Shown: one piece after another, positions 27,208-61,812 of the stretch
Numbering within the stretch: the stretch's first letter is position 1
Layout of the letters: each line of letters begins with the position of its first letter
Assembly: GCF_022695595.1 (NCBI RefSeq)
Contig: NZ_CP074380.1
Location: 2,845,501-2,909,500 of the forward strand
DNA length: 64,000 nt
Direction of reading: 5' to 3'
Source: Streptomyces sp. MST-110588
GTDB taxonomy: Bacteria > Actinomycetota > Actinomycetes > Streptomycetales > Streptomycetaceae
Notes under the pieces: model-generated
Database searches by the model: none
What the model saw: only the letters and a program-made list of their open reading frames with translations
What the model was told of the DNA's origin: nothing
Translations under genes and position numbers: made by a program

Positions 27208-27221
27208 TCTACGCGCGTAGG
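27208..27221. promoter_or_regulatory. palindromic operator upstream of purine nucleoside phosphorylase
   Basis: TCTACGCGCGTAGG, with perfect 12-bp palindrome CTACGCGCGTAG at 27209-27220. A TACCCT -10-like hexamer at 27233-27238 would start transcription at or next to the GTG 27246, so the palindrome would cover the -35 region. The same palindrome occurs at deoC and add. Confidence 0.75.
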
Positions 27222-27245
27222 CAATTACCGGTTACCCTCGTCCGC

Positions 27246-28067
27246 GTGAACGCATTTGCTACTTCGGACATCGAGGCAGACCCGCAGGGTGCCGCCAACG
27301 CCGCCGCCGCCCGCCTGCGCGAGCTGACCGGCGCCGAGACCCACGACGTGGCCCTGGTCATGGGCTCCGGCTGGGCCCCGGCCGCCGACTCGCTCGGCGC
27401 GCCGGAGCACGAGTTCCCGGTCACCGAGCTGCCCGGTTTCCCGCCGCCGGCCGTCGCCGGCCACGGCGGCAAGGTCCGCTCGTACAAGATCGGCGACAAG
27501 CGCGCGCTGGTCTTCCTGGGCCGTACGCACTTCTACGAGGGCCGCGGCGTCGCCAGCGTCGTGCACGGCGTCCGTTCGGCCGTCGCCGCCGGCTGCAAGA
27601 CGGTCGTGCTGACCAACGGGTGCGGCGGTCTGCGCGCGGGCATGCGCCCGGGCCAGCCGGTCCTGATCAGCGACCACCTGAACCTCACCGCCACCTCCCC
27701 CATCAAGGGCGCGAACTTCGTCGACCTGACCGACCTGTACTCGCCGCGACTGCGCGCGCTGTGCAAGGAGGTCGACGCGACCCTGGAGGAGGGCGTCTAC
27801 GCCCAGCTCCCCGGCCCGCACTACGAGACCCCGGCCGAGATCCGGATGCTCCGCACCATGGGCGCCGACCTGGTCGGCATGTCCACGGTCCTGGAGGCCA
27901 TCGCCGCCCGTGAGGCCGGCGCCGAGGTCCTGGGCCTCTCCCTGGTGACGAACCTCGCCGCGGGCATGACCGGCGAGCCGCTCAACCACGAAGAGGTCCT
28001 CCAGGCCGGCCGCGACTCCGCGACCCGCATGGGCAGCCTGCTCGGCCAGGTGCTCGGCAAGCTCTGA
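27246..28067 (+). CDS. purine-nucleoside phosphorylase
   Basis: 273 residues of the trimeric PNP family: phosphate-site [35 protein letters not shown], and the base-site [20 protein letters not shown] with [14 protein letters not shown]. It splits purine (deoxy)nucleosides to base and (deoxy)ribose-1-phosphate, which the downstream phosphomutase can convert to the 5-phosphate. GTG 27246 is chosen because the promoter geometry suggests a leaderless message; the frame is open to 27195, but that would place the operator inside the gene. Confidence 0.93.
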
Positions 28068-28090
28068 GACCGGACCGGCCATGAGGTCCC

Positions 28091-28138
28091 GCGCCCCGGT
28101 TCACGTACGGATTCCGGTCCGTAGGTGACCCGGGGCGC
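28091..28138. terminator. hairpin after PNP
   Basis: 14-bp arms GCGCCCCGGTTCAC and GTGACCCGGGGCGC with one mismatch and a 20-nt loop, 23 nt after the stop. Confidence 0.7.
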
Positions 28139-28299
28139 GCCTTGTGGCCATGGCGCCCCGCGCAGGGCACCTTACGTAGACGTACCTACGCGAGGCGGCC
28201 CCCGCACCCCCTCACAGGACACGGCCTCGCGGGCACCCGGCCTTCACAGCAGGTACACGGCCCCAGAGGCACACAGGCACACACAGGCAGGAGCATCAC

Positions 28300-29976
28300 G
28301 TGGCAATCGATCCCGCCGAGCTGATCAGCCGGGCGAAGGCATGGCAGGCCGAGGACCCCGACGCGGAGACCCGCGAGGAGCTGGGCAAGCTCATCGACGC
28401 CGAGGACACCGAGGAGCTGGCGGCCCGTTTCGCGGGCACGCTCCAGTTCGGTACGGCCGGGCTGCGCGGCGAGCTGGGCGCGGGCCCGATGCGGATGAAC
28501 CGTTCCGTCGTCATCCGGGCCGCGGCCGGCCTCGCCGCGTACCTCAAGGACAAGGGCCAGGGCGAGGGCCTGGTCGTCATCGGGTACGACGCGCGCCACA
28601 AGAGCGCCGACTTCGCCCGGGACACCGCCGCCGTCATGGTCGGCGCGGGCCTGAAGGCCGCGGTGCTGCCGCGTCCGCTGCCCACCCCCGTCCTCGCCTT
28701 CGCCATACGGCACCTCGGGGCGGTCGCCGGTGTCGAGGTCACCGCCAGCCACAACCCGCCGCGCGACAACGGCTACAAGGTCTACCTGGGTGACGGCTCC
28801 CAGATCGTGCCGCCCGCGGACGGCGAGATCGCCGAGCGGATCGCGGCCGTGGCCTCCCTGCACGACGTGCCGCGCCCCTCGGAGGGCTGGGAGATCCTCG
28901 GCGAGGACGTCCTGGACGCCTACCTGGCCCGTACGGACGCCGTGCTCACCCCCGGCTCGCCGCGTGGGATCGGCGTCGTCTACACGCCGATGCACGGTGT
29001 CGGCCGGGACGTGCTGGTCGCCGCCTTCGAGCGGGCGGGCTTCCCGGCGCCGGCCGTGGTCGCCGAGCAGGCCGAGCCGGACCCCGACTTCCCCACCGTC
29101 GCCTTCCCCAACCCCGAAGAGCCCGGCGCGATGGACCTGGCCTTCGCCACCGCCCGTGCCACCGAGGGCACCGACATCGTCATCGCCAACGACCCCGACG
29201 CGGACCGCTGCGCCGTCGCCGTACCGGCGCCCGGCACCGAAGCGGGCTGGCGGATGCTGCGCGGTGACGAGGTCGGCGCGCTGCTCGCCGCCCACCTGGT
29301 CACCAAGCAGGCCCAGGGCACGTTCGCGACGACGATCGTCTCCTCCTCCCTGCTCTCCCGCATCGCGGCGGCGGCCTCGCTCCCGTACGAGGAGACCCTG
29401 ACCGGCTTCAAGTGGCTGGCCCGCGTCGACGGCCTGCGGTACGCCTACGAGGAGGCGCTGGGCTACTGCGTGGACCCCGAGGGCGTACGGGACAAGGACG
29501 GCATCACCGCCGCCCTGCTCGTCACCGAACTGGCCGCCGGGCTCAAGCAGGCCGGCCGCACCCTCACCGACCTGCTGGACGACCTGGCGCTGCGGCACGG
29601 CCTGCACGCCACCGACCAGCTCTCGGTCCGCGTCCAGGACCTGTCGCTGATCGGCGCCGCCATGGAGCGGCTGCGCGAGCAGCCGCCGACCGTCCTGGCG
29701 GGCCTGTCCGTGGCCTCCTCCGACGACCTCTCGCAGGGTACGGACGCGCTGCCGCCGACCGACGGGCTGCGCTACCACCTGGCCGGGTCCGAGGCGGTCG
29801 GCGTGTCGGCCGGCCGGGTGGTCGTCCGGCCCAGCGGCACCGAGCCCAAGCTCAAGTGCTACCTGGAGGTCGTGGTCCCGGTCGCCTCGGCGCAGGCCCT
29901 GGCCCAGGCCCGTACGACGGCGGACGCCGCGCTCACCGCGATCAAGGCGGACCTTTCGGCGGCGGCCGGCATCTGA
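28300..29976 (+). CDS. phospho-sugar mutase (phosphomannomutase/phosphoglucomutase family)
   Basis: 558 residues with the four alpha-D-phosphohexomutase domains: FGTAGLRGELGAGPMRMNR, catalytic phosphoserine loop EVTASHNPPRDNGYKVY, Mg site ANDPDADRCAVAV, sugar-binding GFKWLARVDG...YEEALGYCV and phosphate-binding RPSGTEPKLK. GTG 28300 follows AGGAGC. Position next to PNP and deoC suggests it works as a phosphopentomutase in nucleoside salvage, but the family is broad. Half-sites resembling the nucleoside operator lie at 28174-28192 (ACGTAGA and CCTACGCGA). Confidence 0.9.
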   Translation: MAIDPAELISRAKAWQAEDPDAETREELGKLIDAEDTEELAARFAGTLQFGTAGLRGELGAGPMRMNRSVVIRAAAGLAAYLKDKGQGEGLVVIGYDARHKSADFARDTAAVMVGAGLKAAVLPRPLPTPVLAFAIRHLGAVAGVEVTASHNPPRDNGYKVYLGDGSQIVPPADGEIAERIAAVASLHDVPRPSEGWEILGEDVLDAYLARTDAVLTPGSPRGIGVVYTPMHGVGRDVLVAAFERAGFPAPAVVAEQAEPDPDFPTVAFPNPEEPGAMDLAFATARATEGTDIVIANDPDADRCAVAVPAPGTEAGWRMLRGDEVGALLAAHLVTKQAQGTFATTIVSSSLLSRIAAAASLPYEETLTGFKWLARVDGLRYAYEEALGYCVDPEGVRDKDGITAALLVTELAAGLKQAGRTLTDLLDDLALRHGLHATDQLSVRVQDLSLIGAAMERLREQPPTVLAGLSVASSDDLSQGTDALPPTDGLRYHLAGSEAVGVSAGRVVVRPSGTEPKLKCYLEVVVPVASAQALAQARTTADAALTAIKADLSAAAGI

Positions 29977-30044
29977 CGCGGCCGTCGCCGCCGGCGGTCG
30001 CCTCCGACGGCGGTCGCCTCTGATGGCGGTAGGCGAAGGACCGA

Positions 30045-30080
30045 GCGGCGGGCCCGGGTCTCATGACCGGGGCCCGCCGC
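30045..30080. terminator. hairpin after phosphomutase
   Basis: 11-bp arms GCGGCGGGCCC and GGGCCCGCCGC with an inner GGTC/GACC pair. Confidence 0.75.
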
Positions 30081-30096
30081 GTTTGCGTCACACGCC

Positions 30097-30237
30097 TTAT
30101 GCAGAAATCGTCCGCGATGCCGGATCCAGGGCCTTGCCTTGACCGGCGAGAGCAGCGGCGAGGTCCTCGCCACGGTTGTACCGGGCGTACTCGACCGAGC
30201 CTGGCTTGTACGGATTGCCGTACACGATCCGGGTCAC
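30097..30237 (-). CDS. doubtful 46-codon ORF downstream of AraC gene
   Basis: GTG 30237 opens VTRIVYGNPYKPGSVEYARY and ends in TAA. The composition is less GC-rich than the neighbours and looks protein-like, perhaps the tail of a lost gene. No family recognised. Confidence 0.3.
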   Translation of the reverse strand: MTRIVYGNPYKPGSVEYARYNRGEDLAAALAGQGKALDPASRTISA

Positions 30238-30269
30238 AAGCGCGGCAAACGACCAGCGCCGGTCCCCGC

Positions 30270-31163
30270 TCAGCCGCCGGCGAGCACGCCGGCCGGGTCT
30301 TCGCCGACGACCCGGTGTGCGCTCGGGCTCACGCCCATGACCCGCTTGAACGCCGCACTGAAGCTGAAGGGATCGGCGTAGCCGACGCGCCGGGCGACGG
30401 CGGCCACCGTCGTGCCGGGCTCGGACAGCAGGTCGGCGGCCAAGGTCATGCGCCATTCCGTCAGGTAGGTCAGCGGCGGCTCGCCCAGCAGAGCCTGGAA
30501 GCGCTTGGCGAACGTGGAGCGGGACACCCCGGCGACGGCCGCCAGGGACGGCAGGGTCCAGGCCCGTTCCGGGGCGGCGTGCATGGCGCGCAGGGCGGGG
30601 CCCGCCACCTCGTCGCCCAGCGCGAGATACCAGGCGGGCGGGGCGGCCCCGGGCCGGTCGAACCATTGGCGCAGCGTGCACACCAGCAGCCAGTCGAGCA
30701 GCCGGTCGACCACGATCTGCCGGCCGGGCAGGCCGGCGGTGAGCTGGGCTTCCAGGTAGCCGCGCATGGCGGCGCAGTCGTGTTCGTCGGGGACGACGGC
30801 GACCGGCGGCAGGGCCCGCAGCAGCCTGCGGGGAACCTCGCCCGGGACACGGTAGGCGCCCACCAGGAGCATGGTCCGGCCGTCGCCGTCCGGTATCCGC
30901 TCCGGCCGGCCGACCGGTGTCTGCGGGGCATCCGTGAAGGCGAACGGCTCCGGGCCGCGGACGATCGCGGCCTCTCCCGTGCGCAACGGCTGCGGCTCAC
31001 CGCCGTCGTCCCGGACGATCCAGCCCGCGCCGCTCAGGGGGACGCACAGGGTGAGGTAGGCCTCCTTGGTGAAGCGCAGCGTCCACGGCGGTGTCAGTAC
31101 CGATCCGGCGAAGACGGCGCCCTTGGCACGCACGCCACGCAGCAGGTCGTCGAAGAGGTCCAT
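30270..31163 (-). CDS. AraC-family regulator with cupin-type sensor domain
   Basis: About 297 residues. N-terminal cupin (GAVFAGSVLTPPWTLRF, CVPLSGAGWIV) and two C-terminal HTH motifs: WTLPSLAAVAGVSRSTFAKRFQALLGEPPLTYLTEWRM and VAAVARRVGYADPFSFSAAFKRVMGVSPSAHR. Start ATG 31163 (GTG 31172 also possible). Divergent from the NmrA-like gene by 103 bp, the classic layout of a regulator and its single target. Confidence 0.9.
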   Translation of the reverse strand: MDLFDDLLRGVRAKGAVFAGSVLTPPWTLRFTKEAYLTLCVPLSGAGWIVRDDGGEPQPLRTGEAAIVRGPEPFAFTDAPQTPVGRPERIPDGDGRTMLLVGAYRVPGEVPRRLLRALPPVAVVPDEHDCAAMRGYLEAQLTAGLPGRQIVVDRLLDWLLVCTLRQWFDRPGAAPPAWYLALGDEVAGPALRAMHAAPERAWTLPSLAAVAGVSRSTFAKRFQALLGEPPLTYLTEWRMTLAADLLSEPGTTVAAVARRVGYADPFSFSAAFKRVMGVSPSAHRVVGEDPAGVLAGG

Positions 31164-31266
31164 GGGCGGCACGATATGCCAGGCCGTGCGGGGTGCGGAC
31201 GGCTGGACATGGGGTGCGGACGTTCACCCATGTCCCGTTCCGCGGGCGCCGGGTTGACTCGTCCGC

Positions 31267-32121
31267 ATGTCCGACAACGCTTTTTCTTCCACTGATCCAC
31301 GTCCGGTCCTGGTTCTCGGCGCGACCGGCAAGACCGGCCGCCGCGTGGTGCGCGAACTGCGCGCCGCGGGCGTGCCCGTCCGGGCCGCGTCCCGCTCCGG
31401 CGAGGTCCGCTTCGACTGGACGGAGCCCGCCACCTGGTCCGGCGCCCTGAACGGCGCCTCGGCCGTCTACCTGGTCGCTCCCGACGAGGGGTACGAGGTG
31501 GTGCCGGAGTTCACCGCGCGAGCCGTACGGGCGGGCGTCGGCCGGTTCGTGGCCCTCTCGGGCCGGGGCATCGAGCATGTCGGCCCGGACTTCGGGCAGG
31601 GCATGGCAACGGCCGAGGAGGCGGTGCGCGAATCCGGCGTCCAGTGGGCCGTCCTGCGGGCGAACAACTTCAACCAGAACTTCGACGAGGACCTGTGGCG
31701 GGAGCCGCTGCGCAACGGCCGCCTGGCCCTGCCCATCGGGAAGGTCCCGGAGCCGTTCATCGACGCGGACGACGTCGCGGCGGTGGCCGCGGCGCTGCTC
31801 ACGCGCGCCGCGCACACCGACGGCGTGACCGAGGTCTCCGGGCCGCGCGGCCTGACCTTCGACGAGGCCGTGGCGACGATGGCCCGGGCGGCCGGCCGGG
31901 AGATGGCGTACGTGGAACTGTCCCCGCAGGAGTACCACGCCGAGCTGCTGGCCGCCGGTCTCCCGGAGTCGGCGGCCAGGATGCTCGGTGCCCTGTTCGC
32001 CCTCCATCGGGCAGGGCACACGGTCGCTCCGACCGACGGCGTGCGGCAGGTCCTGGGCCGTGAGCCGGTGGACTTCGCGGCGTACGCGAAGCGGGCCGCC
32101 GCGGCGGGAGCATGGGCCTGA
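31267..32121 (+). CDS. NmrA-like NAD(P)-binding protein
   Basis: 284 residues with N-terminal Rossmann motif VLVLGATGKTGRRVVREL and an atypical-SDR/NmrA body (AVLRANNFNQNF, EPFIDADDVAAVAAALL). The TGxTGxxG-type loop is intact; no SDR Tyr-x-x-x-Lys pair stands out, so it may be a redox sensor or quinone-reductase-like enzyme. Regulated, by position, by the divergent AraC protein. Confidence 0.88.
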   Translation: MSDNAFSSTDPRPVLVLGATGKTGRRVVRELRAAGVPVRAASRSGEVRFDWTEPATWSGALNGASAVYLVAPDEGYEVVPEFTARAVRAGVGRFVALSGRGIEHVGPDFGQGMATAEEAVRESGVQWAVLRANNFNQNFDEDLWREPLRNGRLALPIGKVPEPFIDADDVAAVAAALLTRAAHTDGVTEVSGPRGLTFDEAVATMARAAGREMAYVELSPQEYHAELLAAGLPESAARMLGALFALHRAGHTVAPTDGVRQVLGREPVDFAAYAKRAAAAGAWA

Positions 32122-32238
32122 ACGGCCGCACGGGAAAAGGGCGTCGCCCCGGCTCGGTGCAGCGGGGGCGACGGTTGCCGGACGTACGGCCGTCCGGGCG
32201 CGGGTTTCCCGCCCGTTGCGGGAACTGACGAAGTACGC

Positions 32239-33081
32239 CTATCCGGCGCTGTGGCCGGCCCCGGCCCCGGTCCCGGTTCCGGCCTCGGTGCCGTCCCCGT
32301 CCGGGCCGGGCGTGTCCCGTCCCAGACCGCGGCGGATTGCGATCTCCACGGGGGAGTAGGCGCCGTCGGCCCGCTCCAGCTCGTACGGCGCGGCCGGCAG
32401 CAGCGGCGGCTGGGCCATGAAGCGCGGCCGTACCCCGTGGTGCGGCTGCGCCGCGTGCACCAGGAACGGATGGCACAAAAAGACGTCGCCCGGGGACCCG
32501 GTGGCCAGGGCGACGTCCCGGTGGTCGGACGCCGCCACCAGATCCGGCGCCAGGGCCAGCCCGCCGGCCCCGTCCTCCCCGTACTCCTCCAGCACCTTCG
32601 GCACGTCCAGGTGGGAGCCGACCCGGATCCGGGTCGGGGCGTCCTCCTCCCCGACCTCGCTGAACAAGAACAGCATCAGCAGCGCCCGGCCCCGGGAGCG
32701 CAGGTTGGTGAAGTACCAGCTCTCCCCCTCCGGCAGATAGCTCCCCTCGATGTGCCAGCCCGCGTCGTCCGGCTCCTCCGGGTGCGGGAACCGCAGCGGG
32801 AAGGTGCCCAGCGAGTAGCGCGGCTCCCAGCGCCCCGCGCCGACGAGCAGGTCGTACGCGCGATGCAGGGCCGGGGAGTTGGGGGCGGCGGCGAACGGCC
32901 CCTGCCCCATGCCCGGCACCCAGTGCACGGGCCGCGTCCATGTCGCCGGATCGTCCGGGTCGCAGCCCGTCTCCCGCCACAGCAGCCGCGCGCAGTCCGC
33001 GGCCACCCGCGGCGCGACGGCACCCTCCAGCTTCACGAAGCCGTCACGCAGGAAACGGGATACCAAGGTCGTGTCATCCAT
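32239..33081 (-). CDS. phytanoyl-CoA dioxygenase (PhyH) family protein
   Basis: About 280 residues. DGFVKLEGAV at the start and the iron site WHIEGSYL ... FLCHPFLVHAAQPH: the first ligand pair reads His-x-Glu instead of the usual His-x-Asp, while the distal His is present, followed by RPRFMAQPP with the 2-oxoglutarate-type Arg. The C-terminal 30 residues are Gly/Thr/Ala-rich. Start ATG 33081; 33102 is possible. Substrate unknown. Confidence 0.82.
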   Translation of the reverse strand: MDDTTLVSRFLRDGFVKLEGAVAPRVAADCARLLWRETGCDPDDPATWTRPVHWVPGMGQGPFAAAPNSPALHRAYDLLVGAGRWEPRYSLGTFPLRFPHPEEPDDAGWHIEGSYLPEGESWYFTNLRSRGRALLMLFLFSEVGEEDAPTRIRVGSHLDVPKVLEEYGEDGAGGLALAPDLVAASDHRDVALATGSPGDVFLCHPFLVHAAQPHHGVRPRFMAQPPLLPAAPYELERADGAYSPVEIAIRRGLGRDTPGPDGDGTEAGTGTGAGAGHSAG

Positions 33082-33339
33082 GCCCCCATCGTGCGGCGCC
33101 ACCGACCCCGGCCACCCGACACTTCCCGTACCGTCTTTGTCGGGTGTTCACCGAGCCCCGACGCCGCCGGCCGTCATGACGTCCACGGACACCACCCGTC
33201 AGGGGAAAGCCCCCGCCCAGGCACGGGACCGGGTGCACCCGCGGCCGACCCCGCTCGGCTCCCGCTACGGCGTCCGTGAGACCGTCGAACGCGAACCGCC
33301 CTCGTCGCGCAGCGTCACGCCCGGAGATGAAGACCGAGC

Positions 33340-33969
33340 TCAGAGCGCGATCAGCACCACGAGGCCGAGTACGCCCACCACGCACGGGGCGATGATCTCG
33401 TACGCCCAGCGCACCGCCGGACCGCCCTGCGCGCTCTCCCGCGCGGCGCCCCGCTCCTGGAGTTCGCGCAGCTCGTCAAGGGTGCGGTCGGCCGTGGCAC
33501 GGGGCGGCGGGCCGGCGTCCAGGTGCAGCCCGAACTGGCTCTTGGCGGGCCGGTTCGCGGAGCGCGCCGCCTGCCGGCCGGCCTTCTTGCGCTGCCGCAG
33601 CGACACCGGGACCGCCCAGAGCTGGTACTTCGTGCCGCCCGCGAAGACCTCGCTGGTGAAGGAGGCCCGGAGGTCCTCCACCGCGCCCCACGGCAGCGTG
33701 ATCGTACGGAAGGGGTTGCGCACCACGAGCCGGTCCTGTCCCGCCCGCACCACGGGCCGCAGGGTGAACGCGACCACCAGAGGCACCGCGAACAGCAGCC
33801 CGGCCACCGCCAGCAGCTTGGTGTGCCCCTCGCCGCGCACCAGCGCGTCACCGCCGAGCCAGGCGGCGAGCGCCAGCAGCATGACCCCGCCGGCCAGCCC
33901 GGCCGGCGAGCGGTAGCTGCGGTCCGCGTACTGCTGGACGGGGTCTGCGGGCTTGTCCGGGCTCGTCAT
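33340..33969 (-). CDS. PH-domain membrane protein
   Basis: 209 residues: two helices near 25-75 (LAGGVMLLALAAWLGGDAL, LLAVAGLLFAVPLVVAFTL), then a bacterial PH-like domain (DRLVVRNPFRTITLPWGAVEDLRA), a Lys/Arg-rich loop and a C-terminal membrane helix (CVVGVLGLVVLIAL). Common in Streptomyces; function unknown. Confidence 0.8.
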   Translation of the reverse strand: MTSPDKPADPVQQYADRSYRSPAGLAGGVMLLALAAWLGGDALVRGEGHTKLLAVAGLLFAVPLVVAFTLRPVVRAGQDRLVVRNPFRTITLPWGAVEDLRASFTSEVFAGGTKYQLWAVPVSLRQRKKAGRQAARSANRPAKSQFGLHLDAGPPPRATADRTLDELRELQERGAARESAQGGPAVRWAYEIIAPCVVGVLGLVVLIAL

Positions 33970-34057
33970 GCTGCCGATTGTGCCTCAGAGGGCCGGGTCG
34001 CCATAGGGGTGATGTTGACGGCCGGGTGGGAGCGGGGGCCCGGTCGGGGCCGGGGCG

Positions 34058-34111
34058 TTGACACCGTCGCCGCCGGACGGTTGTAATGACCGACGTGTCA
34101 CGTGACGTCGG
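34058..34111 (+). promoter_or_regulatory. strong -35/-10 promoter with overlapping start-site palindrome
   Basis: TTGACA at 34058-34063, 18-bp spacer, TGTAAT at 34082-34087. Directly after it is CCGACGT-GTCACGTG-ACGTCGG (34090-34111), a perfect 7-bp inverted repeat around an 8-bp core containing CACGTG, placed over the expected start point as an operator would be. Transcription would run toward the gene at 34449. Confidence 0.7.
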
Positions 34112-35438: not shown

Positions 35439-35468
35439 GCAGGTCCAGAGCCCGCCGGCCCCCGCGGA

Positions 35469-36184: not shown

Positions 36185-36214
36185 GTGACAGGTAGCTACG
36201 CGCGTAGATATGCT
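36185..36214 (+). promoter_or_regulatory. deoC promoter with palindromic operator in the spacer
   Basis: GTGACA (36185-36190) and TATGCT (36209-36214) are 18 bp apart, and the perfect palindrome CTACGCGCGTAG (36196-36207) fills the spacer. The predicted start point falls on GTG 36221, so the message is probably leaderless. Confidence 0.75.
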
Positions 36215-36220
36215 CCCCTG

Positions 36221-37222
36221 GTGACCATGCCCACCACTGTTCCCGCATACGGCAAGGAAGCCGCGGGGCGTCTGGCGTCGATGGCGGACGTGACCGCCTC
36301 CGACGGTGCGCTGCGCCGCTTCCTCCACGGCCTCCCGGGCGTCGACGCGGTCGGCCTCCAGGCCCGCGCCGCGACCCTCGGCACCCGCTCGATCAAGAAC
36401 ACGGCGAAGGCGTACGCCATCGATCTCGCCATCACGATGATCGACCTGACGACGCTGGAAGGCGCGGACACCCCGGGCAAGGTCCGGGCCCTGTGCGCCA
36501 AGGGCGTCAACCCGGACCCCACCGACCGCACCGTCCCCAAGGTCGCCGCGATCTGTGTCTACCCCGACATGGTGGCGACCGCGAAGGACGCGCTCGGTGA
36601 CTCCGGGATCCACGTCGCCTCCGTCGCCACCGCCTTCCCCGCGGGCCGCGCCGCGCTGCCCGTCAAGCTCGCCGACACCCGTGACGCGGTCGCGGCCGGC
36701 GCCGACGAGATCGACATGGTGATCGACCGGGGTGCCTTCCTCTCCGGCCGCTACATGTCGGTGTTCGAGGAGATCAAGCAGGTCAAGGAGGCGTGCCGGC
36801 GTGAGGACGGCAGCGCCGCCCACCTGAAGGTGATCTTCGAGACCGGTGAGCTCCAGACGTACGACAACGTCCGCCGGGTCTCCTGGCTGTCGATGCTGGC
36901 CGGCGCCGACTTCATCAAGACCTCGACCGGCAAGGTGGCGGTCAACGCCACTCCCCCGGTGACCCTGCTGATGCTGGAGGCCGTCCGCGACTTCCACGCC
37001 GCCACGGGGGTACAGGTCGGTGTGAAGCCGGCCGGCGGTATCCGTACGACCAAGGACGCCGTCAAGTACCTGGTGATGGTCAACGAGACGCTGGGCGAGG
37101 GGTGGCTGACCCCCGACTGGTTCCGCTTCGGTGCCTCCAGCCTGCTCAACGACCTGCTGATGCAGCGCCAGAAGCTCAGCACCGGCCGTTACTCCGGCCC
37201 CGACTACGTCACGGTGGACTGA
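36221..37222 (+). CDS. deoC: deoxyribose-phosphate aldolase
   Basis: About 333 residues from GTG 36221 (ATG 36227 is the alternative). Class I aldolase: VAAICVYPDMV, EIDMVIDRGAFLSGR, LKVIFETGEL, Schiff-base Lys in DFIKTSTGK, and KPAGGIRTTKDAVKYL. Converts deoxyribose-5-phosphate to acetaldehyde and glyceraldehyde-3-phosphate; the two aldehyde dehydrogenase genes immediately downstream would dispose of the aldehyde. About 70 residues longer at the N-terminus than the E. coli type. Controlled by the operator in its promoter. Confidence 0.95.
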   Translation: MTMPTTVPAYGKEAAGRLASMADVTASDGALRRFLHGLPGVDAVGLQARAATLGTRSIKNTAKAYAIDLAITMIDLTTLEGADTPGKVRALCAKGVNPDPTDRTVPKVAAICVYPDMVATAKDALGDSGIHVASVATAFPAGRAALPVKLADTRDAVAAGADEIDMVIDRGAFLSGRYMSVFEEIKQVKEACRREDGSAAHLKVIFETGELQTYDNVRRVSWLSMLAGADFIKTSTGKVAVNATPPVTLLMLEAVRDFHAATGVQVGVKPAGGIRTTKDAVKYLVMVNETLGEGWLTPDWFRFGASSLLNDLLMQRQKLSTGRYSGPDYVTVD

Positions 37223-48206: not shown

Positions 48207-49367
48207 TTACGCTGAGTAAGGTTCGCTGTTCACGCCGGACGAGGTAGAAGCCTGGCGGAACAGCCATTCGGACCGCAGTTCGGCGTATCCGGGCTTGATC
48301 ACGTCATTGATCATCGCCAGACGTTCATCGAAAGGAATGAACGCGGACTTCATGGCATTGACGGTGAACCACTGCATGTCGTCGAGCGTGTAGCGGAATG
48401 TCTCGACGAGGTGCTCGAATTCCCGCGACATGCTCGTACCGCTCATCAGCCGGTTGTCGGTGTTGACCGTCAGCCGGAACTGCAGACGGCGCAGCAGCCC
48501 GATGGGGTGCTCGGCGTACGAGGCCGCGGCACCGGTCTGGAGGTTGGAGGTCGGGCACATCTCCAGCGGGATGCGCTTGTCCCGTACGTACGAGGCCAGC
48601 CGGCCCAGCTTGACCCCGCCGTCCTCGGCGACCTGGATGTCGTCGATGATCCGCACGCCGTGGCCCAGCCGGTCGGCGCCGCACCACTGGAGCGCCTGCC
48701 AGATGGAGGGCAGCCCGAACGCCTCGCCCGCGTGGATCGTGAAGTGGTTGTTCTCGCGCTTGAGGTACTCGAAGGCGTCCAGGTGGCGGGTGGGAGGGAA
48801 GCCGGCCTCGGCGCCCGCGATGTCGAAGCCGACGACGCCCAGGTCGCGGTAGCGGTTGGCCAGTTCGGCGATCTCCAGGGCGCGGGCCGCGTGCCGCATG
48901 GCGGTCAGCAGCGCGCCGACCCGGATGCGGTGGCCGTTGGCGCGGGCCCGCCGCTCACCCTCGCGGAAGCCCTCGTTCACGGCCTCGACGACCTCTTCGA
49001 GGGTCAGCCCCTTCTCCAGGTGCTGTTCGGGGGCGTAGCGGATCTCGGCGTACACGACGCCGTCCGCGGCCAGGTCCTCGGCGCACTCGGCGGCCACCCG
49101 GGTCAGCGCCTCGCGGGTCTGCATGACGGCGCAGGTGTGCGCGAAGGTCTCCAGATAGCGCTCCAGCGACCCGGAGTCGGCCGCCTCGCGGAACCAGACG
49201 CCCAGCTTCTCGGGGTCGGTCTCGGGGAGGTTGTCATACCCGGTCTCACGGGCCAGCTCGACGATGGTCGCGGGGCGCAGGCCGCCGTCGAGGTGGTCGT
49301 GCAGCAGCACCTTGGGTGCGCGGCGGATCTGGTCGCCGGTAGGGAGGTTGGTGGTCTCGCTGGTCAT
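48207..49367 (-). CDS. add: adenosine deaminase
   Basis: 386 residues. Metal ligands in [22 protein letters not shown] with catalytic Glu, RLGHGVRI and the [11 protein letters not shown]sp-Asp site (one of the pair is Asn-Thr-Asp). Converts (deoxy)adenosine to (deoxy)inosine, feeding PNP. The start at 49367 follows TAGAGT by 6 nt, so the message may be leaderless; the palindromic operator lies just upstream at 49384-49395. Confidence 0.94.
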
Positions 49368-49383
49368 CTCGGCACTCTAGCCC

Positions 49384-49395
49384 CTACGCGCGTAG
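49384..49395. promoter_or_regulatory. palindromic operator upstream of add
   Basis: Perfect 12-bp palindrome CTACGCGCGTAG, 17 nt before the add ATG. On the minus strand it sits just upstream of a TAGAGT -10-like box, so bound protein would block the promoter. Confidence 0.75.
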
Positions 49396-49471
49396 ATCAC
49401 ACTGAACGATATGCAACGGTGACCCGTACGCAGGGTGGCCCGCACGCCGCCTTACTGCCATCGTTGCGCTC

Positions 49472-54860: not shown

Positions 54861-55077
54861 GGCGGTCTCCTCCATCGGTACGTCACCGATCCCAGCATGC
54901 CGAACGGAGCCGGACCCGGTCCATCGACACCGATCACCCGTACGAGGGCCCCAGCGGCCCCCTCACCCCCCGGCGCTCTCCGACAGGGCCGCCCGCAGAG
55001 CCGACTCCGGCGCCTCCCCGGTCGCCCAGGCCCAGATCGCCCGCCGGGCCCTACGGTCCACCGGGAACGCACGGCGG
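54858..55077. repeat. 220-bp direct repeat, copy B
   Basis: Partner of 53391-53610; same length without gaps. Confidence 0.85.
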
Positions 55078-55547
55078 CACGCGCGGTAGAGGAGGCCCGG
55101 CTGTTCTGCCACGTACCACTCCTCGCCCGCGACCTTCAGGCAGAGATCAGCGGGCGGCATGCCTTCCGCGAAAAGCCTCGTCATCTCATCGACATCGACG
55201 TCGAACTTCGAGCGGGCGGCGACGGACAGGCCGTACGTCTCCTGGAACTCCCGGCAGATGTCGCGCGCCGCGTAGGACGGCACGCGGCGCAGCCACCATT
55301 CCTCCTCGGGCAACCGGGGAAACGCCTCGATCCCGAAGACCGGCCGCAGCCGCGCGTCGATCTCCTCCAGCTCCGCGACCGTCCGACGCCGGTCGGCCGG
55401 ACCTGCCGCAGCCGAGTTGGTGATCACCTCGTGGAGGACACTGCGCGCATTGACCTCCACGAGGTAGTCCTCCAGGTCCCACGCGTAGCCGTCGAGGCAG
55501 TCCCGCGCGAAGGCCCGCCAACGGCCGACCCTTTCCACGAATTCCAT
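54963..55547 (-). CDS. candidate immunity protein for the RHS toxin
   Basis: 194 residues from ATG 55547, preceded by GGGAGGTG; 58 nt downstream of the toxin stop on the same strand, the standard place for the cognate immunity gene. Mostly helical, acidic and Arg-rich: YAWDLEDYLVEVNARSVLHEV, LEEIDARLRPVFGIEAFPRLPEEEWWLR, DVDEMTRLFAEGMPPADLCLKVAGEEWYVAEQPGLLYRACRRAF. No family recognised. Against: its 3' end is also duplicated next to Uma2 copy A, so it may be an older Uma2 neighbour. Confidence 0.6.
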   Translation of the reverse strand: MEFVERVGRWRAFARDCLDGYAWDLEDYLVEVNARSVLHEVITNSAAAGPADRRRTVAELEEIDARLRPVFGIEAFPRLPEEEWWLRRVPSYAARDICREFQETYGLSVAARSKFDVDVDEMTRLFAEGMPPADLCLKVAGEEWYVAEQPGLLYRACRRAFPVDRRARRAIWAWATGEAPESALRAALSESAGG

Positions 55548-55605
55548 CAGCGCACCTCCCGGAGGCCGGGACGACTCACCGATGCGCCCGGTTTCGCCAC
55601 CGTCT

Positions 55606-58600
55606 CTACCTGCCGCTCTCGTTGTCCATGTATTTATGCGCGTCCATGATGGTTTCACCGGGACGGAAGTAGCTGGTGATTTTTCCGTTCTGCGCGATGG
55701 CCAATCTGCCTTCCGGGTCCATACGCAACACGGCACCATCGGATGAGCGGATCACTTCACGAACGCCCTGTGGTGGCACAGGATCACGGAACAACCTCTC
55801 CGAGTCCGCCACATAGCGCCCGAATCCATCGTCGTTGTCATGCTGGTCCTGGTATTCCGGCATATCAGGTTTCCCGTCCCTCGCACCTTCTCCGTAAGCG
55901 TGCTTGTCGTAATGTTCATCCACTGTGGTGACGTCCCATTTGTACGGCGCAAGCCCGAGCGGGTCGCTCCATACGTGCGGGTTGTGGACGTACGCGACCG
56001 GATTGGGGGCCGGGTGCAGCCCCAGGGGGTCAGGAGTGGCATATCGAGCCACTTCAGGGTCGTAGTAGCGGTTGAAGTTGTAGTGGAGGGCGGTTTCCGG
56101 GTCGAAGTACTGACCCGGAAAGCGGAGCGGTGTGTAGGCGGTACTGGCCGCGGTCCAGGCCGCCAGCCCCCACAACGTGCTGCGGCTACGCCACGAGATG
56201 TGACCGCTTTCGTCGACGAGTTCGGTGGGGGCGCCTACGAGGTCGGTGACGATCGCGAAGAACCGCTCGGCGACCTCGGTGTCGGTCATGCCGGTGAGGC
56301 GTTCGCGCTGGGTCAACGGCTTCAGGCCGCGGTGGTCCCATGTGAGCGTGGCCCGCGTCTTCTGACCCTGGACGGATGTGGTCTGTTCGCACAGGGTGGT
56401 GCCGTCCCAGGTGAAGTCCACCTGCTCGGCGACGCCGAGCCCGTCACCGGTCAGGCGTTGCTTGGCGGTGCGCCGGCCCAGGGGGTCATAGGTGTAGCGC
56501 CAGGTGGTGCCGTCGGGTGTGACGCAGGAGACGAGACGGTTCTCGGCGTCCCATGTGTAGTGCCAGGTGTCCGGCTTCCGTGACAGGCGGCTCTTTTGAC
56601 GCAGGATGGTGCGGCCGGCCGCGTCGTATTCGTAACGGATTCCTCCGGCGCGGCTCAGGCGGGTGCCGGCGTAAAGGCGCTCACCTCGGGCCTCGGGGGC
56701 CGGGTGACGGTCGGGCCAGGCCGCGTGGCTCTGGTTCCCGGCCGCGTCATAGGCGTAGGTCTCGCTCCAGTTACGGGCGAAGACGGTGACCACACGGCCC
56801 GCGGGGTCCAGTTCGAACCGACGGCGACCGTTGATGTGATCGTCCACGCCCGTGAGATGTCCGTCCGCGCGGTAGGTGTACGCGCGGCGCTGAATGGTTT
56901 CGGTCACCGAGGCGACGTGCTGGTCGGTGAGACGGCCGCGGGCGTCGAAGCTGTGGGTGAAAGTGATGTCTCCGAGGGTGCGGGACAGTTCCTGGCCGAG
57001 CGCGTCGTGCGTGAAGGTCAGGGTGCGGCCGGAGACGTCGAGTCCGCAGCGACGCCCCGCGGCGTCGTACGTCCAGGTGCTGACCGCGCCGGTGGGGGTG
57101 GTGCGGGACGTACGACGTCCCAGGGCGTCGTAGCCGAAGGCAGTGGTGCGTCCGTTCACCGTCTCGGTGACGACCCGTCCGAATTCGTCGCGGGTATAGC
57201 TCAGTTCACTGCCCGGTGCCGTGATCCTGATCGGCTGGCCGGTCGCGTCGTACGTGAAATGGGTGAGTTCCCCGTCGACGTCTTTGGTGAGGGTGCGGCC
57301 GAGGATGTCGTACTGATAGCGAATGGTGTGATTCAGCGGAGTGGTACGGGAGACCAGGCGCCCGACTCCGTCATACGCATAGGCCTGAGTGCGACTGTCG
57401 AAATCCGTTTCCGATATCAGCCGGCCTGCGAGGTCGTACTCGTAATGCCAGGCCAGCCCCTGCTGGTTGGTGACCTTCGTGAGCCGCAGTTCGGTGTCGT
57501 GGAGGAATTCATGGCGTGCCCCGTCCGGGTCGGTGCGCGTCTTGAGCTGGTCGAAATGGCCGTATTCGAATGTGGTGACCTGGCCCAAGGGGTCGGTGTG
57601 TGTGATGCAGTTGCCCTCGCCGTCGTAGGACCAGCTTTCCTGGGTGCTGTCGGGGTTGATCCTGGACAGCAGGAGCCCTTCGGGGGTCCACCGGTAATGC
57701 GTGGTGTTGCCGAGGGGATCGGTCAGGGTGGCGGTGCGGCCGAACGCGTCTCGGTGGAAGGTTGTGGTCGCACCGAGCGCGTCGATGACCGTCAGAGGAA
57801 GGCCGCTGTCGTCGCAGGTGACACGGGTGGTGTTCCCCAGCGGGTCGGTGACCGTGGTGAGGTGGCCGTGCCGGTCGTAGGTGAAGCGGGTGGAGTGTCC
57901 GGCGGGATCCGTGACGGCGGTCCGGTTGCCCCTGGCGTCGTACTCGTACCGGACGGTCCGGCCTTCCGGACCGGTGATCTCCGCCGGCAGGCCCAGGTCG
58001 GTGTAGACGGTCGTGGTGGTGGAGCCGTCGGGGTGGACGACGGACACCAGGTGCCCGTCCTCGTCATAGGTCAGCCGTGTGACGGCACCCAGAGGGTCGG
58101 TGATCAGAACGGGACGGTCGTGCGTGTCATAGACGGTCCGGGTGGTGTGACCGAGCGGATCGGTGACGGCGATGACCTGTAGCTCTTCGTTGACGAGGTA
58201 CCGGGTGACGGCACCCTGCCCGTTGGTGTGCGTGGTGACACGATGGCCGCTGTCCGCGTCAGTCTCGTCATAGGTGAACCGGTTCGCCAGGTGTCCGTCA
58301 ACACCGGACTGGGCGGTGCAGCGGTGACGGTCGTCGTAGGCGTACTCGTACCGGGAGTCGTTGGAGTCCACCCAGGCGGTCAGGCGGTGCTCGGTGTCGT
58401 ATGCGAAGCGGGTCGTCGCTCCTGCGGAGTTGGTGACGGAAATGAGGTCGTCGGCCTCGTCGTGCCCGTAAGAGACCAGTAGCTGATCCGACCCGTCGTC
58501 GCCGGCGCCCGCCAGGTGCACCGTCGTGAGGCGGCCCCGCTCGTCACAGGTCAGCTTCAGCTCATGGCCGGCGCTGTGCCGGATCGCGTACGGAATGCCG

Positions 58601-60246
58601 TTCTCGTCCGCGTAATCGAAGGTGATCCGGTGCCCGTTGCGGTCGGTGATCTCATCGGGCAGGGCCAGGCCGGGTGCGTGTGGCGCGTCACTGAAGTAGT
58701 GGGTCCGGCCGCTCTGCGGGTCGTTGACGGCCCAGTCGCCCTGCGGCGTACGCATCAGGGGCCACCGCGGACCGCTCTTCGGCACAACCCGCTCACCGGC
58801 TTCGGGGAGCGGGTAGCGCAGCAGCATCCCCGTCTCGGTAACGAAGACGATGCCCTCGTCGTCGATCTCCAGGCGCTGGTCCACCGTGGAATACCACGAA
58901 GGCCCGATGTGCCGTCCGATGCGGGTCGAGGACTCGTACTTGCGGGTGAAGGTCAGCGGCAGGGCGCCGGGCAGGGAGATGTCGGTCTGGTTCAGGAACA
59001 CCTTGCCCGTGGCCAGGTCGACCGGGTCGGTGCCGTCCGTGCTCTTGCCCTCGTCCTCGCGGGTCTTGTCGCGGGGGTGGTCGGCGTCGGCCTGCTTGGC
59101 CGCCTCGCTCTTCGAGGGAGCTTTGGACCGGGCCCGCGAGGACGGGCCACCGCCGCCCTTGGGTCCCTTGGGGTCCTTGTGGTCGCCCTTGCCGATGCCC
59201 TTGAAGTGGTCGGAGAGCTTCTGGTCGTTCTCGTGGTGGTTCTTGGCCATCTGCTTGACGCCGCGGGTCATGTTGTCGTCGAGGTGGTGGGCGGCGTTCT
59301 TCACGCCCTTCTCGATGCCCTCGATGACCTTGTCCAGCATCGCGTTGGCCGCGTCCGCGATGGCGTCCTTGCCGCGGGTGCGGCCGTGGTGCCCCCTGGC
59401 CTTGCCGATCTTCCCGCCGGCCTTGTGGCGGAAGGCGCCGCCCGCGCTCTGCAGGCTGGTGACGACCCGGTCGTGCTCGTCCTTGTCGAAGCTGAACCCG
59501 CCGCTCGCCCCGCCGCCCCCACCGGACCCGCCGCCGCTGCCGGCGCTGAGGAGCTGCATCGGGTTGGCGGCGGCGTCCTTGGCGGCGCCCTTGGCGTCCT
59601 GCACGCCCTGCTTGAAGCCGTCCTTGCCGGCCTGGGCGGTACGGCCCAGGTCCACCCCGTCCTGCACGCCCAGGGCGTTGGCGCCGAGCTGGACCACCAG
59701 GTCGCCGACCATCGCCCCCAGCGCCTCCTCGACGGGGGTCAGGGCGATGCTGACGACCTGCTCGGCGACCTGCTGGCAGACCTCCTTGAACAGCCGCTTG
59801 ACGATCACGCGGGTGGCCTGGGTCGCGGCCAGCGCCCCCACCTCGGACAGGCCCAGGGTGAAGGGGGCCGCGGCCTGTGCGGCGATCACCTCCGCGGCCA
59901 GGATGCCGAGCTGGACGATCGCCCCGATCTTGGCGCCCTCGATGAGCACCGCGACCCCGTCCAGGGCGGTGGCGGCCAGCCGGCCGCAGTCCGCCAGGCC
60001 CTTGAGATGGGTGCCGTTGATCTTGCCCCAGTGGGCGTTCAGCGCCTCCACGGCCAGCGAGCCGCCGGCCGACTCCACCAGGCCCTGGATGGCGGTGTGC
60101 GCCTCGTTCGCGCCCTCGTCGATGTCCTCGGCGAACTCCCGCATGGCCTCGGCCATCTCGCGGTAGTCGTCCTCGTCCACATTCGGCCACGACACCCCGA
60201 TGATGTCGAGAACCTCATCCGCCCACCCAGGCAGCACAACACCCAT
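55606..60246 (-). CDS. RHS/YD-repeat polymorphic toxin with WXG-like N-terminus
   Basis: 1546 residues from ATG 60246 (open to 60273). Residues 1-75 form a helical WXG/Esx-like region; 95-200 are Ala/Val-rich with possible membrane insertion. A Gly/Ser linker (~250) and a Lys/His-rich stretch follow. A DUF6531-type entry (DPVDLATGKVFLNQTDISLPG, ~400) leads to about thirty YD repeats (520-1290) and the RHS core end RFPGQYFDPETALHYNFNRYYDPEVARYATPDPLGL. After a second DPLGL comes a 114-residue tip with HYDKHAYGE and DPEGRLAIAQNGKITSYF-RP. The tip resembles BECR-type RNases. No secretion signal, so type VII-like export is inferred. Confidence 0.88.
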   Translation of the reverse strand: MGVVLPGWADEVLDIIGVSWPNVDEDDYREMAEAMREFAEDIDEGANEAHTAIQGLVESAGGSLAVEALNAHWGKINGTHLKGLADCGRLAATALDGVAVLIEGAKIGAIVQLGILAAEVIAAQAAAPFTLGLSEVGALAATQATRVIVKRLFKEVCQQVAEQVVSIALTPVEEALGAMVGDLVVQLGANALGVQDGVDLGRTAQAGKDGFKQGVQDAKGAAKDAAANPMQLLSAGSGGGSGGGGGASGGFSFDKDEHDRVVTSLQSAGGAFRHKAGGKIGKARGHHGRTRGKDAIADAANAMLDKVIEGIEKGVKNAAHHLDDNMTRGVKQMAKNHHENDQKLSDHFKGIGKGDHKDPKGPKGGGGPSSRARSKAPSKSEAAKQADADHPRDKTREDEGKSTDGTDPVDLATGKVFLNQTDISLPGALPLTFTRKYESSTRIGRHIGPSWYSTVDQRLEIDDEGIVFVTETGMLLRYPLPEAGERVVPKSGPRWPLMRTPQGDWAVNDPQSGRTHYFSDAPHAPGLALPDEITDRNGHRITFDYADENGIPYAIRHSAGHELKLTCDERGRLTTVHLAGAGDDGSDQLLVSYGHDEADDLISVTNSAGATTRFAYDTEHRLTAWVDSNDSRYEYAYDDRHRCTAQSGVDGHLANRFTYDETDADSGHRVTTHTNGQGAVTRYLVNEELQVIAVTDPLGHTTRTVYDTHDRPVLITDPLGAVTRLTYDEDGHLVSVVHPDGSTTTTVYTDLGLPAEITGPEGRTVRYEYDARGNRTAVTDPAGHSTRFTYDRHGHLTTVTDPLGNTTRVTCDDSGLPLTVIDALGATTTFHRDAFGRTATLTDPLGNTTHYRWTPEGLLLSRINPDSTQESWSYDGEGNCITHTDPLGQVTTFEYGHFDQLKTRTDPDGARHEFLHDTELRLTKVTNQQGLAWHYEYDLAGRLISETDFDSRTQAYAYDGVGRLVSRTTPLNHTIRYQYDILGRTLTKDVDGELTHFTYDATGQPIRITAPGSELSYTRDEFGRVVTETVNGRTTAFGYDALGRRTSRTTPTGAVSTWTYDAAGRRCGLDVSGRTLTFTHDALGQELSRTLGDITFTHSFDARGRLTDQHVASVTETIQRRAYTYRADGHLTGVDDHINGRRRFELDPAGRVVTVFARNWSETYAYDAAGNQSHAAWPDRHPAPEARGERLYAGTRLSRAGGIRYEYDAAGRTILRQKSRLSRKPDTWHYTWDAENRLVSCVTPDGTTWRYTYDPLGRRTAKQRLTGDGLGVAEQVDFTWDGTTLCEQTTSVQGQKTRATLTWDHRGLKPLTQRERLTGMTDTEVAERFFAIVTDLVGAPTELVDESGHISWRSRSTLWGLAAWTAASTAYTPLRFPGQYFDPETALHYNFNRYYDPEVARYATPDPLGLHPAPNPVAYVHNPHVWSDPLGLAPYKWDVTTVDEHYDKHAYGEGARDGKPDMPEYQDQHDNDDGFGRYVADSERLFRDPVPPQGVREVIRSSDGAVLRMDPEGRLAIAQNGKITSYFRPGETIMDAHKYMDNESGR

Positions 60247-60339
60247 ACGAAAAACACGCCCCCGTAGAACCAACCGTCAACCGATCAGATGCTCTCACCT
60301 GGGTGAACGGTTCCTGTAACCGGGAAAAGCGTGCATGGG

Positions 60340-60378
60340 CAGGCCCCCGCCGCCGCTGGGGGACGGGGCGGGGGCCTG
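60340..60378. terminator. deoA terminator
   Basis: A 12-bp stem CAGGCCCCCGCC with its complement, between deoA and the RHS gene. Nearby 60427-60470 holds GGTCGGGCC-type short repeats. Confidence 0.7.
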
Positions 60379-60489
60379 GTCGAGGGAGCCGGCGGGGGCG
60401 GGGCCGTCGGGGTTTCGGTGAGCCGGTGTGGCCGGTCGGGCCGGTCGGGCCGGTCGGCCGATGCGGGCCGGTCAGCCGTTGCCGCCGGG

Positions 60490-61767
60490 TCAGCCGATGC
60501 GGTCGAGGATGATGGGGTTGGGGGTGAAGTCGGTGCCTTCGGGGGCGATGAGGACGTTGCCGTCGAGGGCTTCGAGGGCGTAGCCGAACTTCTCCGGGGT
60601 GTCGGTGTGGAGGGTCAGCAGGGGCTGGCCGGCGGTGACCTTGTCGCCGGGCTTGGCGTGCATCTCGATGCCGGCGCCCGCCTGCACCGGGTCCTCCTTG
60701 CGGGCGCGGCCGGCGCCCAGGCGCCAGGCGGCGATGCCCACCGCGTAGGCGTCCAGCGTGGTCAGGACGCCGGAGGAGGAGGCGTTGACGACGTGCTGCT
60801 CGCGGGCGACCGGGAGGGTGGCGTCGGGGTCGCCGCCCTGGGCCTGGATCATGCGGCGCCAGTGGTCCATGGCCGAGCCGTCGGCCAGCGCCTTGGCGGG
60901 GTCGGCGTCGGGGAGGCCGGCGGCGGTGAGCATCTCGCGGGCCAGGGCGAGGGTGAGTTCGACGACGTCGGCGGGGCCGCCGCCCGCCAGGACCTCGACG
61001 GACTCGCGTACTTCCAGCGCGTTGCCGGCGGTCAGGCCGAGGGGGGTGGACATGTCGGTGAGCAGGGCGGTGGTGCGCACGCCGTGGTCGGTGCCGAGTC
61101 CGACCATGGTGGAGGCCAGTTCGCGGGCGTCGTCCAGGTTCTTCATGAAGGCGCCGGAGCCGACCTTGACGTCCAGGACGAGCGAGCCGGTGCCCTCGGC
61201 GATCTTCTTGGACATGATGGAGGAGGCGATCAGCGGGATGGCCTCGACGGTGCCGGTGACGTCGCGCAGCGCGTAGAGCTTCTTGTCGGCGGGGGCCAGG
61301 CCGTCGCCGGCCGCGCAGATGACGGAGCCGACGTTGCGCAGGACGTCCATCATCTCGTCGTTGGAGAGCAGGGCGCGCCAGCCGGGGATGGACTCCAGCT
61401 TGTCCAGGGTGCCGCCGGTGTGGCCCAGGCCGCGGCCGGAGAGCTGGGGTACGGCCGCGCCGCAGGCGGCGACCAGCGGGGCGAGCGGGAGGGTGATCTT
61501 GTCGCCGACGCCGCCGGTGGAGTGCTTGTCCGCGGTGGGGCGGGGCAGGGACGAGAAGTCCATGCGCTCACCGGAGGCGATCATGGCCGCGGTCCAGCGG
61601 GCGATCTCCGTACGGTTCATGCCGTTCAGCAGGATCGCCATGGCCAGCGCGGACATCTGCTCGTCAGCGACCTCACCGCGCGTATACGCGTCGATGACCC
61701 AGTCGATCTGCTCCGGGGTCAGTTCGCCGCGGTCGCGCTTGGTACGGATGACGGAGATGACGTCCAT
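60490..61767 (-). CDS. deoA: thymidine (pyrimidine-nucleoside) phosphorylase
   Basis: 425 residues. Phosphate/base site KHSTGGVGDKITLPLAPLVAACG, SGRGLGHTGGTLDKLESIPG, SKKIAEGTGSLVLDVKVGSGAFMK and the C-terminal barrel-sandwich domain (EMHAKPGDKVTAGQPLLTLH). Splits thymidine/deoxyuridine to base and deoxyribose-1-phosphate, upstream of phosphomutase and DeoC. ATG 61767 follows AAAGGAAG. It has its own promoter and a variant operator at 61799, separated from cdd by a terminator. Confidence 0.95.
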   Translation of the reverse strand: MDVISVIRTKRDRGELTPEQIDWVIDAYTRGEVADEQMSALAMAILLNGMNRTEIARWTAAMIASGERMDFSSLPRPTADKHSTGGVGDKITLPLAPLVAACGAAVPQLSGRGLGHTGGTLDKLESIPGWRALLSNDEMMDVLRNVGSVICAAGDGLAPADKKLYALRDVTGTVEAIPLIASSIMSKKIAEGTGSLVLDVKVGSGAFMKNLDDARELASTMVGLGTDHGVRTTALLTDMSTPLGLTAGNALEVRESVEVLAGGGPADVVELTLALAREMLTAAGLPDADPAKALADGSAMDHWRRMIQAQGGDPDATLPVAREQHVVNASSSGVLTTLDAYAVGIAAWRLGAGRARKEDPVQAGAGIEMHAKPGDKVTAGQPLLTLHTDTPEKFGYALEALDGNVLIAPEGTDFTPNPIILDRIG

Positions 61768-61798
61768 GGGGACTTCCTTTCGAACGGTTATCTCCTGT

Positions 61799-61812
61799 TC
61801 TACACGCATAGA
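61799..61812. promoter_or_regulatory. variant palindromic operator upstream of deoA
   Basis: TCTACACGCATAGA, matching TCTACGCGCGTAGA at 12 of 14 positions and keeping TCTA..CG..TAGA symmetry. Lies 32 nt upstream of the deoA ATG. Confidence 0.68.

Follow-up and report, generated by a model that had tools for sequence, protein, structure and literature searches.

How are the genes of nucleoside breakdown, dispersed along a Streptomyces chromosome, brought under common control? The question is raised by a stretch of 64,000 nucleotides of Streptomyces sp. MST-110588 (assembly GCF_022695595.1, contig NZ_CP074380.1, positions 2,845,501 to 2,909,500 of the forward strand), hereafter the window, in which one short palindrome stands before several such genes. 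We suggest that this palindrome, with the consensus TCTACGCGCGTAGA, is very probably the operator of a genus-wide regulon of nucleic-acid scavenging in Streptomyces, predicted from sequence comparison to be read by a LacI-family repressor of the SCO4158 type. What was computed, and is described below, comprises the sites with their conservation and their position in promoters, and the match between operator and recognition helix in relatives of that protein.

Then, where does the palindrome occur? An exact search of the window finds CTACGCGCGTAG at positions 27209-27220, 36196-36207 and 49384-49395 and at no fourth place, and a search for the 14-mer locates the variant TCTACACGCATAGA at 61799-61812. 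These results confirm the coordinates proposed in an earlier sequence-only reading of this DNA, as well as its statement that the window holds no further exact copy. The sites (strand given as ".", that is, none assigned) and the genes that they precede are as follows.

27208..27221, strand ".": operator TCTACGCGCGTAGG, upstream of PNP
36195..36208, strand ".": operator GCTACGCGCGTAGA, upstream of deoC, with a -10-like TATGCT directly after it
49383..49396, strand ".": operator CCTACGCGCGTAGA (TCTACGCGCGTAGG when read towards add), directly before a -10-like TAGAGT
61799..61812, strand ".": operator TCTACACGCATAGA (TCTATGCGTGTAGA when read towards deoA), upstream of deoA
27246..28067, + strand: PNP, purine nucleoside phosphorylase (PF01048), GTG start inferred from the sequence
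36221..37222, + strand: deoC, deoxyribose-phosphate aldolase (PF01791), GTG start inferred
48207..49367, - strand: add, adenosine deaminase (PF00962)
60490..61767, - strand: deoA, thymidine/pyrimidine phosphorylase (PF00591, PF02885, PF07831)

The Pfam assignments support the four genes as PNP, deoC, add and deoA, in agreement with the earlier view that all of them act in nucleoside breakdown. With start codons chosen by eye, the gap between the 14-bp site and the start codon is 24 bp for PNP, whose transcript is possibly leaderless, 12 bp for deoC, 15 bp for add and 31 bp for deoA. For deoA, the start read from the sequence is the ATG at 61767 with AAAGGAAG in front of it; the longer mechanical open reading frame, extending to 61809, would overlap the operator.

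From base composition (GC set at 0.72; that of the window is 0.709), about 0.007 exact copies of the 12-mer are expected per 64 kb and 0.86 per genome, and three are observed in the window alone. When mismatches are allowed, the window contains seven matches to the 14-mer at up to three mismatches against 2.78 expected (one of 100 shuffles reaches seven) and eight matches to the 12-mer at up to two mismatches against 4.55 expected (10 of 100 shuffles reach eight). Since these loose counts lie near the shuffle expectation, the remaining loose matches are probably due to chance. The half-sites that the sequence-only reading had noted before the phosphomutase are present as letters at 28174-28192, but they are not conserved: none of 10 orthologous promoters has a site at three or fewer mismatches (the best have four to six), and they were rejected as an operator.

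Over the whole 7.9 Mb genome, CTACGCGCGTAG has only four exact copies, which fall within a single 40-kb stretch and each stand at nucleoside genes; the fourth copy (G000:C1:2911922) lies 2.4 kb to the right of the window, between bmpA and the ATPase gene of a nucleoside ATP-binding cassette (ABC) transporter. With up to two mismatches, TCTACGCGCGTAGA matches 19 places, compared with five for the reversed pattern. All 19 neighbourhoods were read, the genes being named partly by eye: in 14 cases the genes serve the use of nucleic acids; a further place falls at the start of a LacI-family gene that adjoins glnR, another has an unclear assignment, and the remaining three (L014, L019 and L021), which lie within unrelated genes, were rejected as chance matches. 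The 14 targets comprise PNP, deoC, add, deoA and the nucleoside ABC transporter; permeases of the NCS2 (PF00860) and NCS1 (PF02133) families; purS; nucleotidases of the UshA and CpdB types, named after their best NCBIfam models, both below cut-off; two secreted nucleases, one ExeM-like and one of the HNH kind (PF07510), the site lying within the first codons of the HNH gene; a dihydropyrimidinase (TIGR02033, above cut-off); and a carbon-nitrogen hydrolase. The best model for the last is N-carbamoylputrescine amidase, below cut-off, and the sole ground for labelling it pyrimidine-degradation-like is its distance of 8 kb from the dihydropyrimidinase. The dihydropyrimidinase site (L011) and the site at G000:C1:5605165, at an acid-phosphatase-like gene (PF03767, below cut-off) and an alcohol dehydrogenase gene, are doubtful, because neither was met again in the three other genomes whose sites were read. 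In the consensus, CG occupies positions 7-8 in 14 of the 15 listed sites.

Is the palindrome conserved before the same genes elsewhere? Exact copies were found in all 121 Streptomyces genomes searched, two to six in each, against zero to three for the reversed control. Among 296 genomes sampled across the phylum, all nine Streptomyces have three to five exact copies, and five of the 287 others have one. For three Streptomyces genomes (G013, G031 and G107), the matches at up to two mismatches were all read, with genes named by eye and Pfam run on representatives: the 67 places, in 64 stretches, compare with 22 for the reversed control, and 38 of them are at the same kinds of genes, three (in G031 only) at lysozyme, phospholipase and lipase genes, and 26 at genes without a link to nucleic acids. 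The sites before purS, the NCS2 permease, add, deoC, PNP, the HNH nuclease, the ExeM-like nuclease (PF03372) and the hydrolase recur in all three, those before CpdB, UshA and the nucleoside ABC transporter in two, and that before NCS1 in one; the NCS2 permease, of purine/uracil type, is thus a target in all four genomes read. In addition, endonuclease I (PF04231) has a site in all three, inside the predicted frame in G031. The expectation that the motif would be confined to nucleoside genes therefore holds for the exact copies in the genome and is not strict at two mismatches.

A gene-first test, in which loci were found by gene and not by motif in 30 genomes, gives rates for three of the targets. 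At up to two mismatches a site precedes purS in 30/30 loci, the UshA type in 29/29 (the gene reaches threshold in 29 of the 30 genomes) and the CpdB type in 26/29, or 29/29 at up to three mismatches (gene in 26 of the 30 genomes). By comparison, 200 shuffled palindromes at up to two mismatches hit 0.12% of purS, 0.02% of UshA and 0.21% of CpdB loci. The gene cluster of the window was also compared with that of 11 other species. Because these regions were chosen around known exact copies, the figures for add (11/11 orthologues), PNP (a one-mismatch site in 10/10, at -38 in nine and -41 in one) and deoC (9/10) confirm the position and are not an unbiased rate. The ABC ATPase gene has a site in 6/9 at up to two mismatches and 7/9 at up to three, bmpA in 9/9 at up to three, and deoA in only 4/10 other species, so that this last site is lineage-variable. 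Taken with the genome-wide counts, the conservation before orthologous Streptomyces genes, which the sequence-only reading had called for, strongly supports its proposal of a dispersed nucleoside regulon with a common operator. It is likewise strongly supported that the regulon is wider than salvage, since it also takes in secreted nucleases, nucleotidases, base permeases and purS.

The position of the sites within promoters, whose elements were read by eye, is also informative. Before add, the operator, lying at -29 in 9/11 species, is followed by a -10-like TAnAGT (again in 9/11) and then by the ATG; before deoC, TATGCT comes after the operator; and before PNP, the operator covers the presumed -35 region. 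Such a placement over the promoter suits steric repression.

Then, which protein could read the operator? Judged by comparative evidence, the most likely regulator is the 341-aa LacI-family protein encoded beside glnR, which is of the SCO4158 type. Its domains PF00356 (helix-turn-helix), PF13377 and PF00532 (ligand domain) are all above cut-offs, and the recognition helix STAVVSYV is unique to it among the 13 PF00356 hits of the genome. A palindromic operator with a central CpG is typical of the LacI family, and TCTACGCGCGTAGA has both features, as would be predicted if this candidate reads it. The protein is present in 37 of 37 Streptomyces sampled, being encoded in two pieces in G010. Outside the genus, its best matches reach no more than 45% identity in a sample of 118 genomes of the class; in a scan of named genomes, the best 80 of 367 matches are orthologues 84-93% identical, including two from Streptantibioticus and four from Actinacidiphila (88-90%). 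As a separate observation, the two pieces in G010 (G010:C2:3170764-3171853) overlap, yet four exact operators are kept in that genome; the split reflects either a sequencing error or a recent loss.

Distant relatives of the candidate offer a further comparison. All seven that were fetched (L147-L153, 40-45% identical) share the helix core AVVSY, and for five of them the neighbouring genes concern nucleosides or pentoses:

L148: divergent from a nucleoside hydrolase gene
L149: ABC genes and a pfkB kinase gene alongside
L150: ABC genes and an adenosine deaminase gene alongside
L151: nucleoside hydrolase and adenosine deaminase genes alongside
L152: nucleoside hydrolase gene alongside

Exact TCWANNCGNNTWGA occurs in four of the seven stretches, L148 having two sites and L151, L152 and L153 a single one; that of L151, TCTAAACGATTAGA, stands in the gap separating the LacI gene from the nucleoside hydrolase gene. 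A search of 22 genomes from the order of G471 yielded 19 relatives, spread over 13 of the genomes and partly overlapping the seven. Among the 17 with a readable helix, 15 have the TCWANNCGNNTWGA pattern at no more than one mismatch (11 exactly) within 200 bp upstream, compared with 2/203 background windows (none exact). Moreover, helices with STA or SVA pair with a TCTA half-site in 8/9 cases, and those with SPA pair with a TCAA half-site in 7/7. The match between helix and operator is strong but not independent evidence, because the pattern was post hoc and some relatives are near copies. It may be added that the L153 site, TCTACACGAGTAGA at L153:7754, lies before a sugar-type ABC cluster beside a LacI relative 40% identical to the candidate, which suggests that the same operator code is reused for another pathway.

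Based on these results, a mechanism can be proposed. A dimer of the SCO4158-type protein would occupy the palindrome, which overlaps the promoter from -35 to -10, and would thereby obstruct RNA polymerase, and a product of nucleic-acid breakdown, such as a nucleoside or a pentose derivative, would release it. The genes so controlled would serve secreted nucleases and nucleotidases, uptake of bases and nucleosides, phosphorolysis, deamination and aldol cleavage, together with pyrimidine-degradation-like enzymes and the purS operon of purine synthesis. What we infer here is that the LacI protein binds, that it represses and does not activate, and that an inducer releases it; a nucleoside or pentose signal that lifts repression is favoured because the relatives sit in catabolic loci.

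Several points weigh against this reading. The assignment of the regulator is comparative only, and the co-occurrence of regulator and motif alone proves little, because both mark the genus. The 26 near matches of 67 that lack a nucleic-acid link stand beside 22 matches of the reversed control. As for the relatives, L147 and L153 lie outside nucleoside clusters, L275 and L277 have no site within 200 bp upstream, two of the 19 were dropped with the helix unread, five of the 15 with a site (L268-L272) are near-identical, and some of these loci had already been viewed when the pattern was defined. A simple inducer model does not readily account for purS being controlled together with breakdown genes. 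Finally, the site of the LacI gene itself is half-degenerate. In a comparison of its promoter at 80 orthologue loci (L026-L105, the best 80 of 367), CGCGTAGACT is invariant in 80/80 and the other half varies by two to four mismatches; the invariant stretch includes, and thus coincides with, a -10-like TAGACT, so this half-site is weak evidence for autoregulation, which is found in 72% of LacI regulators according to the relevant part of PMC4052901. An operator half that doubles as a -10 element may mean weak or self-limited expression of the LacI gene. A passage of PMC4365011 reports use of the SCO4158 promoter as a constitutive one in a reporter, which argues against strong autoregulation.

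The inclusion of purS would be better explained if the same LacI protein acted with a purine co-repressor in the manner of PurR, so that purine plenty shuts down scavenging and purS alike. The purS site in 30/30 loci and the targeting of the purine/uracil-type NCS2 permease in 4/4 genomes fit this version, but deoC, deoA and dihydropyrimidinase are breakdown genes, and the relatives of the protein stand in catabolic loci with nucleoside hydrolase, adenosine deaminase, pfkB-kinase and ABC genes; we regard a purine co-repressor, the leading alternative as regards the effector, as possible at most, and on the unlikely side. Given that the LacI assignment is comparative and the gene's own site is weak, the reader of the operator might also be a transcription factor other than DeoR and the SCO4158 type. 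This seems improbable, since the operators beside LacI relatives match and the STAVVSYV helix occurs in only one of the 13 PF00356 hits, a comparison covering the LacI family only.

The sequence-only reading had put forward, by proximity, a protein encoded in the window:

23590-24591: DeoR-family protein with HTH_DeoR and DeoRC domains, encoded some 2.6 kb away from the PNP site

If this protein bound the palindrome, it would repress the four genes and respond to a sugar phosphate. Its domains and its distance from PNP would suit such a role, but none of the five deoR orthologues in the fetched regions has an upstream site (best five to six mismatches), which is a weak objection, as not all regulators are autoregulated, and the palindrome with its central CpG matches the operators beside LacI relatives with the same helix core. 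The proposal thus finds no support, the LacI candidate being better supported, and we consider DeoR control very improbable. It is scarcely credible that the palindrome is a chance sequence or a structural element of Z-prone DNA. TACGCGCGTA does alternate pyrimidine and purine, but the element is conserved before the same genes across Streptomyces, and the structural reading was dropped, as sites of the relatives such as TCTACTCGAATAGA do not alternate. Control by the putative SCO4158-type repressor is the reading preferred here.

Some neighbouring genes of the window and some side observations should also be noted. To the right of deoA lie two genes of the nucleoside cluster, for which sites of their own were rejected (0/10 orthologues each):

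61922..62320, - strand: cdd, cytidine deaminase (PF00383), without an operator of its own
62314..63609, - strand: nucleoside ABC permease (PF02653)

The nucleoside ABC ATPase gene and bmpA (PF02608), the latter with a three-mismatch site, are outside the window, and transcription of cdd probably comes by read-through from the promoters of the nucleoside ABC genes on its right. The ExeM-like nuclease gene at L023:369-2224 (G000:C1, about 6.52 Mb) seems to be split over two frames and appears to be a pseudogene or to contain a sequencing error. In G013, paired operator-like sites, with starts 14 to 110 bp apart, precede the genes for an ExeM-like nuclease, a CpdB-type nucleotidase and endonuclease I (L215, L217 and L218), an arrangement that might allow looping or tandem binding. 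In G031, operator-like sites stand before genes for a GH25 lysozyme (L199:1501), a secreted phospholipase A2 (L257:2001) and a GDSL lipase (L250:2001), possibly extending the regulon to the lysing of other cells. In two of the three species, CCTACGCGCGTATA is found before an M23-peptidase-like gene (L221:2001 and L237:2001), Pfam having been run on the L221 protein only.

If the proposal is true, an orphan LacI-family regulator of every Streptomyces sampled gains a testable function, a single operator connects nucleoside salvage and purine synthesis with the secreted nucleases and nucleotidases, and the recycling of nucleic acids during colony lysis is tied to nitrogen, phosphate and antibiotic physiology. 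According to part of PMC7244524, putative nucleases and adenosine deaminase are jointly far more abundant in the proteome of S. coelicolor than in that of S. lividans. A bolder speculation, which we would call rather unlikely, is that the repressor encoded beside glnR, the gene of the nitrogen master regulator, runs a genus-wide programme of feeding on nucleic acids that couples de novo purine synthesis to the digestion of DNA and RNA outside the cell, and that in some species it has taken in genes for lysozyme, phospholipase A2 and lipase, becoming a regulon of corpse-feeding or predation. The DNA and RNA would then come from dead neighbours or from the colony's own lysed hyphae.

How does this regulon compare with known systems? 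In Escherichia coli, the LacI-family regulator CytR controls genes of nucleoside uptake and breakdown, and its operator differs from the Streptomyces palindrome. The candidate scores 165 bits against the CytR cut-off of 436 (NCBIfam equivalog), and the Streptomyces regulon differs further in covering secreted nucleases, nucleotidases and purS; cytidine and adenosine are named as CytR inducers in PMC4052901. In the part of that paper considered here, PurR of Gammaproteobacteria is described as a LacI-family global regulator whose targets include purine synthesis genes. The likeness lies in the family and in purS, but the candidate scores 178 bits against a cut-off of 501, and most Streptomyces targets belong to breakdown or uptake. 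UriR, AdeR and HpxR appear there as local LacI-family regulators of nucleoside use (PMC4052901), an activity shared by the regulon proposed here, whose sites, in contrast, are dispersed over the genome; against UriR, the candidate scores 117 bits, below the cut-off of 550.

SCO4158 of Streptomyces coelicolor is, like the candidate, a LacI-family gene product encoded downstream of glnR (PMC9739823), the orthology being drawn from family and neighbourhood and not from direct alignment. In the passages concerned, it is proposed to regulate glnR (PMC9739823), listed in a table of ArgR sites (PMC5839063) and named ccpA (PMC4365011); the title of Meng 2012 ties it to an antibiotic pigment. These passages of the three papers make no link between SCO4158 and nucleic acids, and the main text of PMC4052901 does not mention it. 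A literature search, with most subscription journals outside its coverage, found no description of the regulon. Among the systems compared, the Streptomyces regulon is of the LacI-family nucleoside kind, and it is unusually broad.

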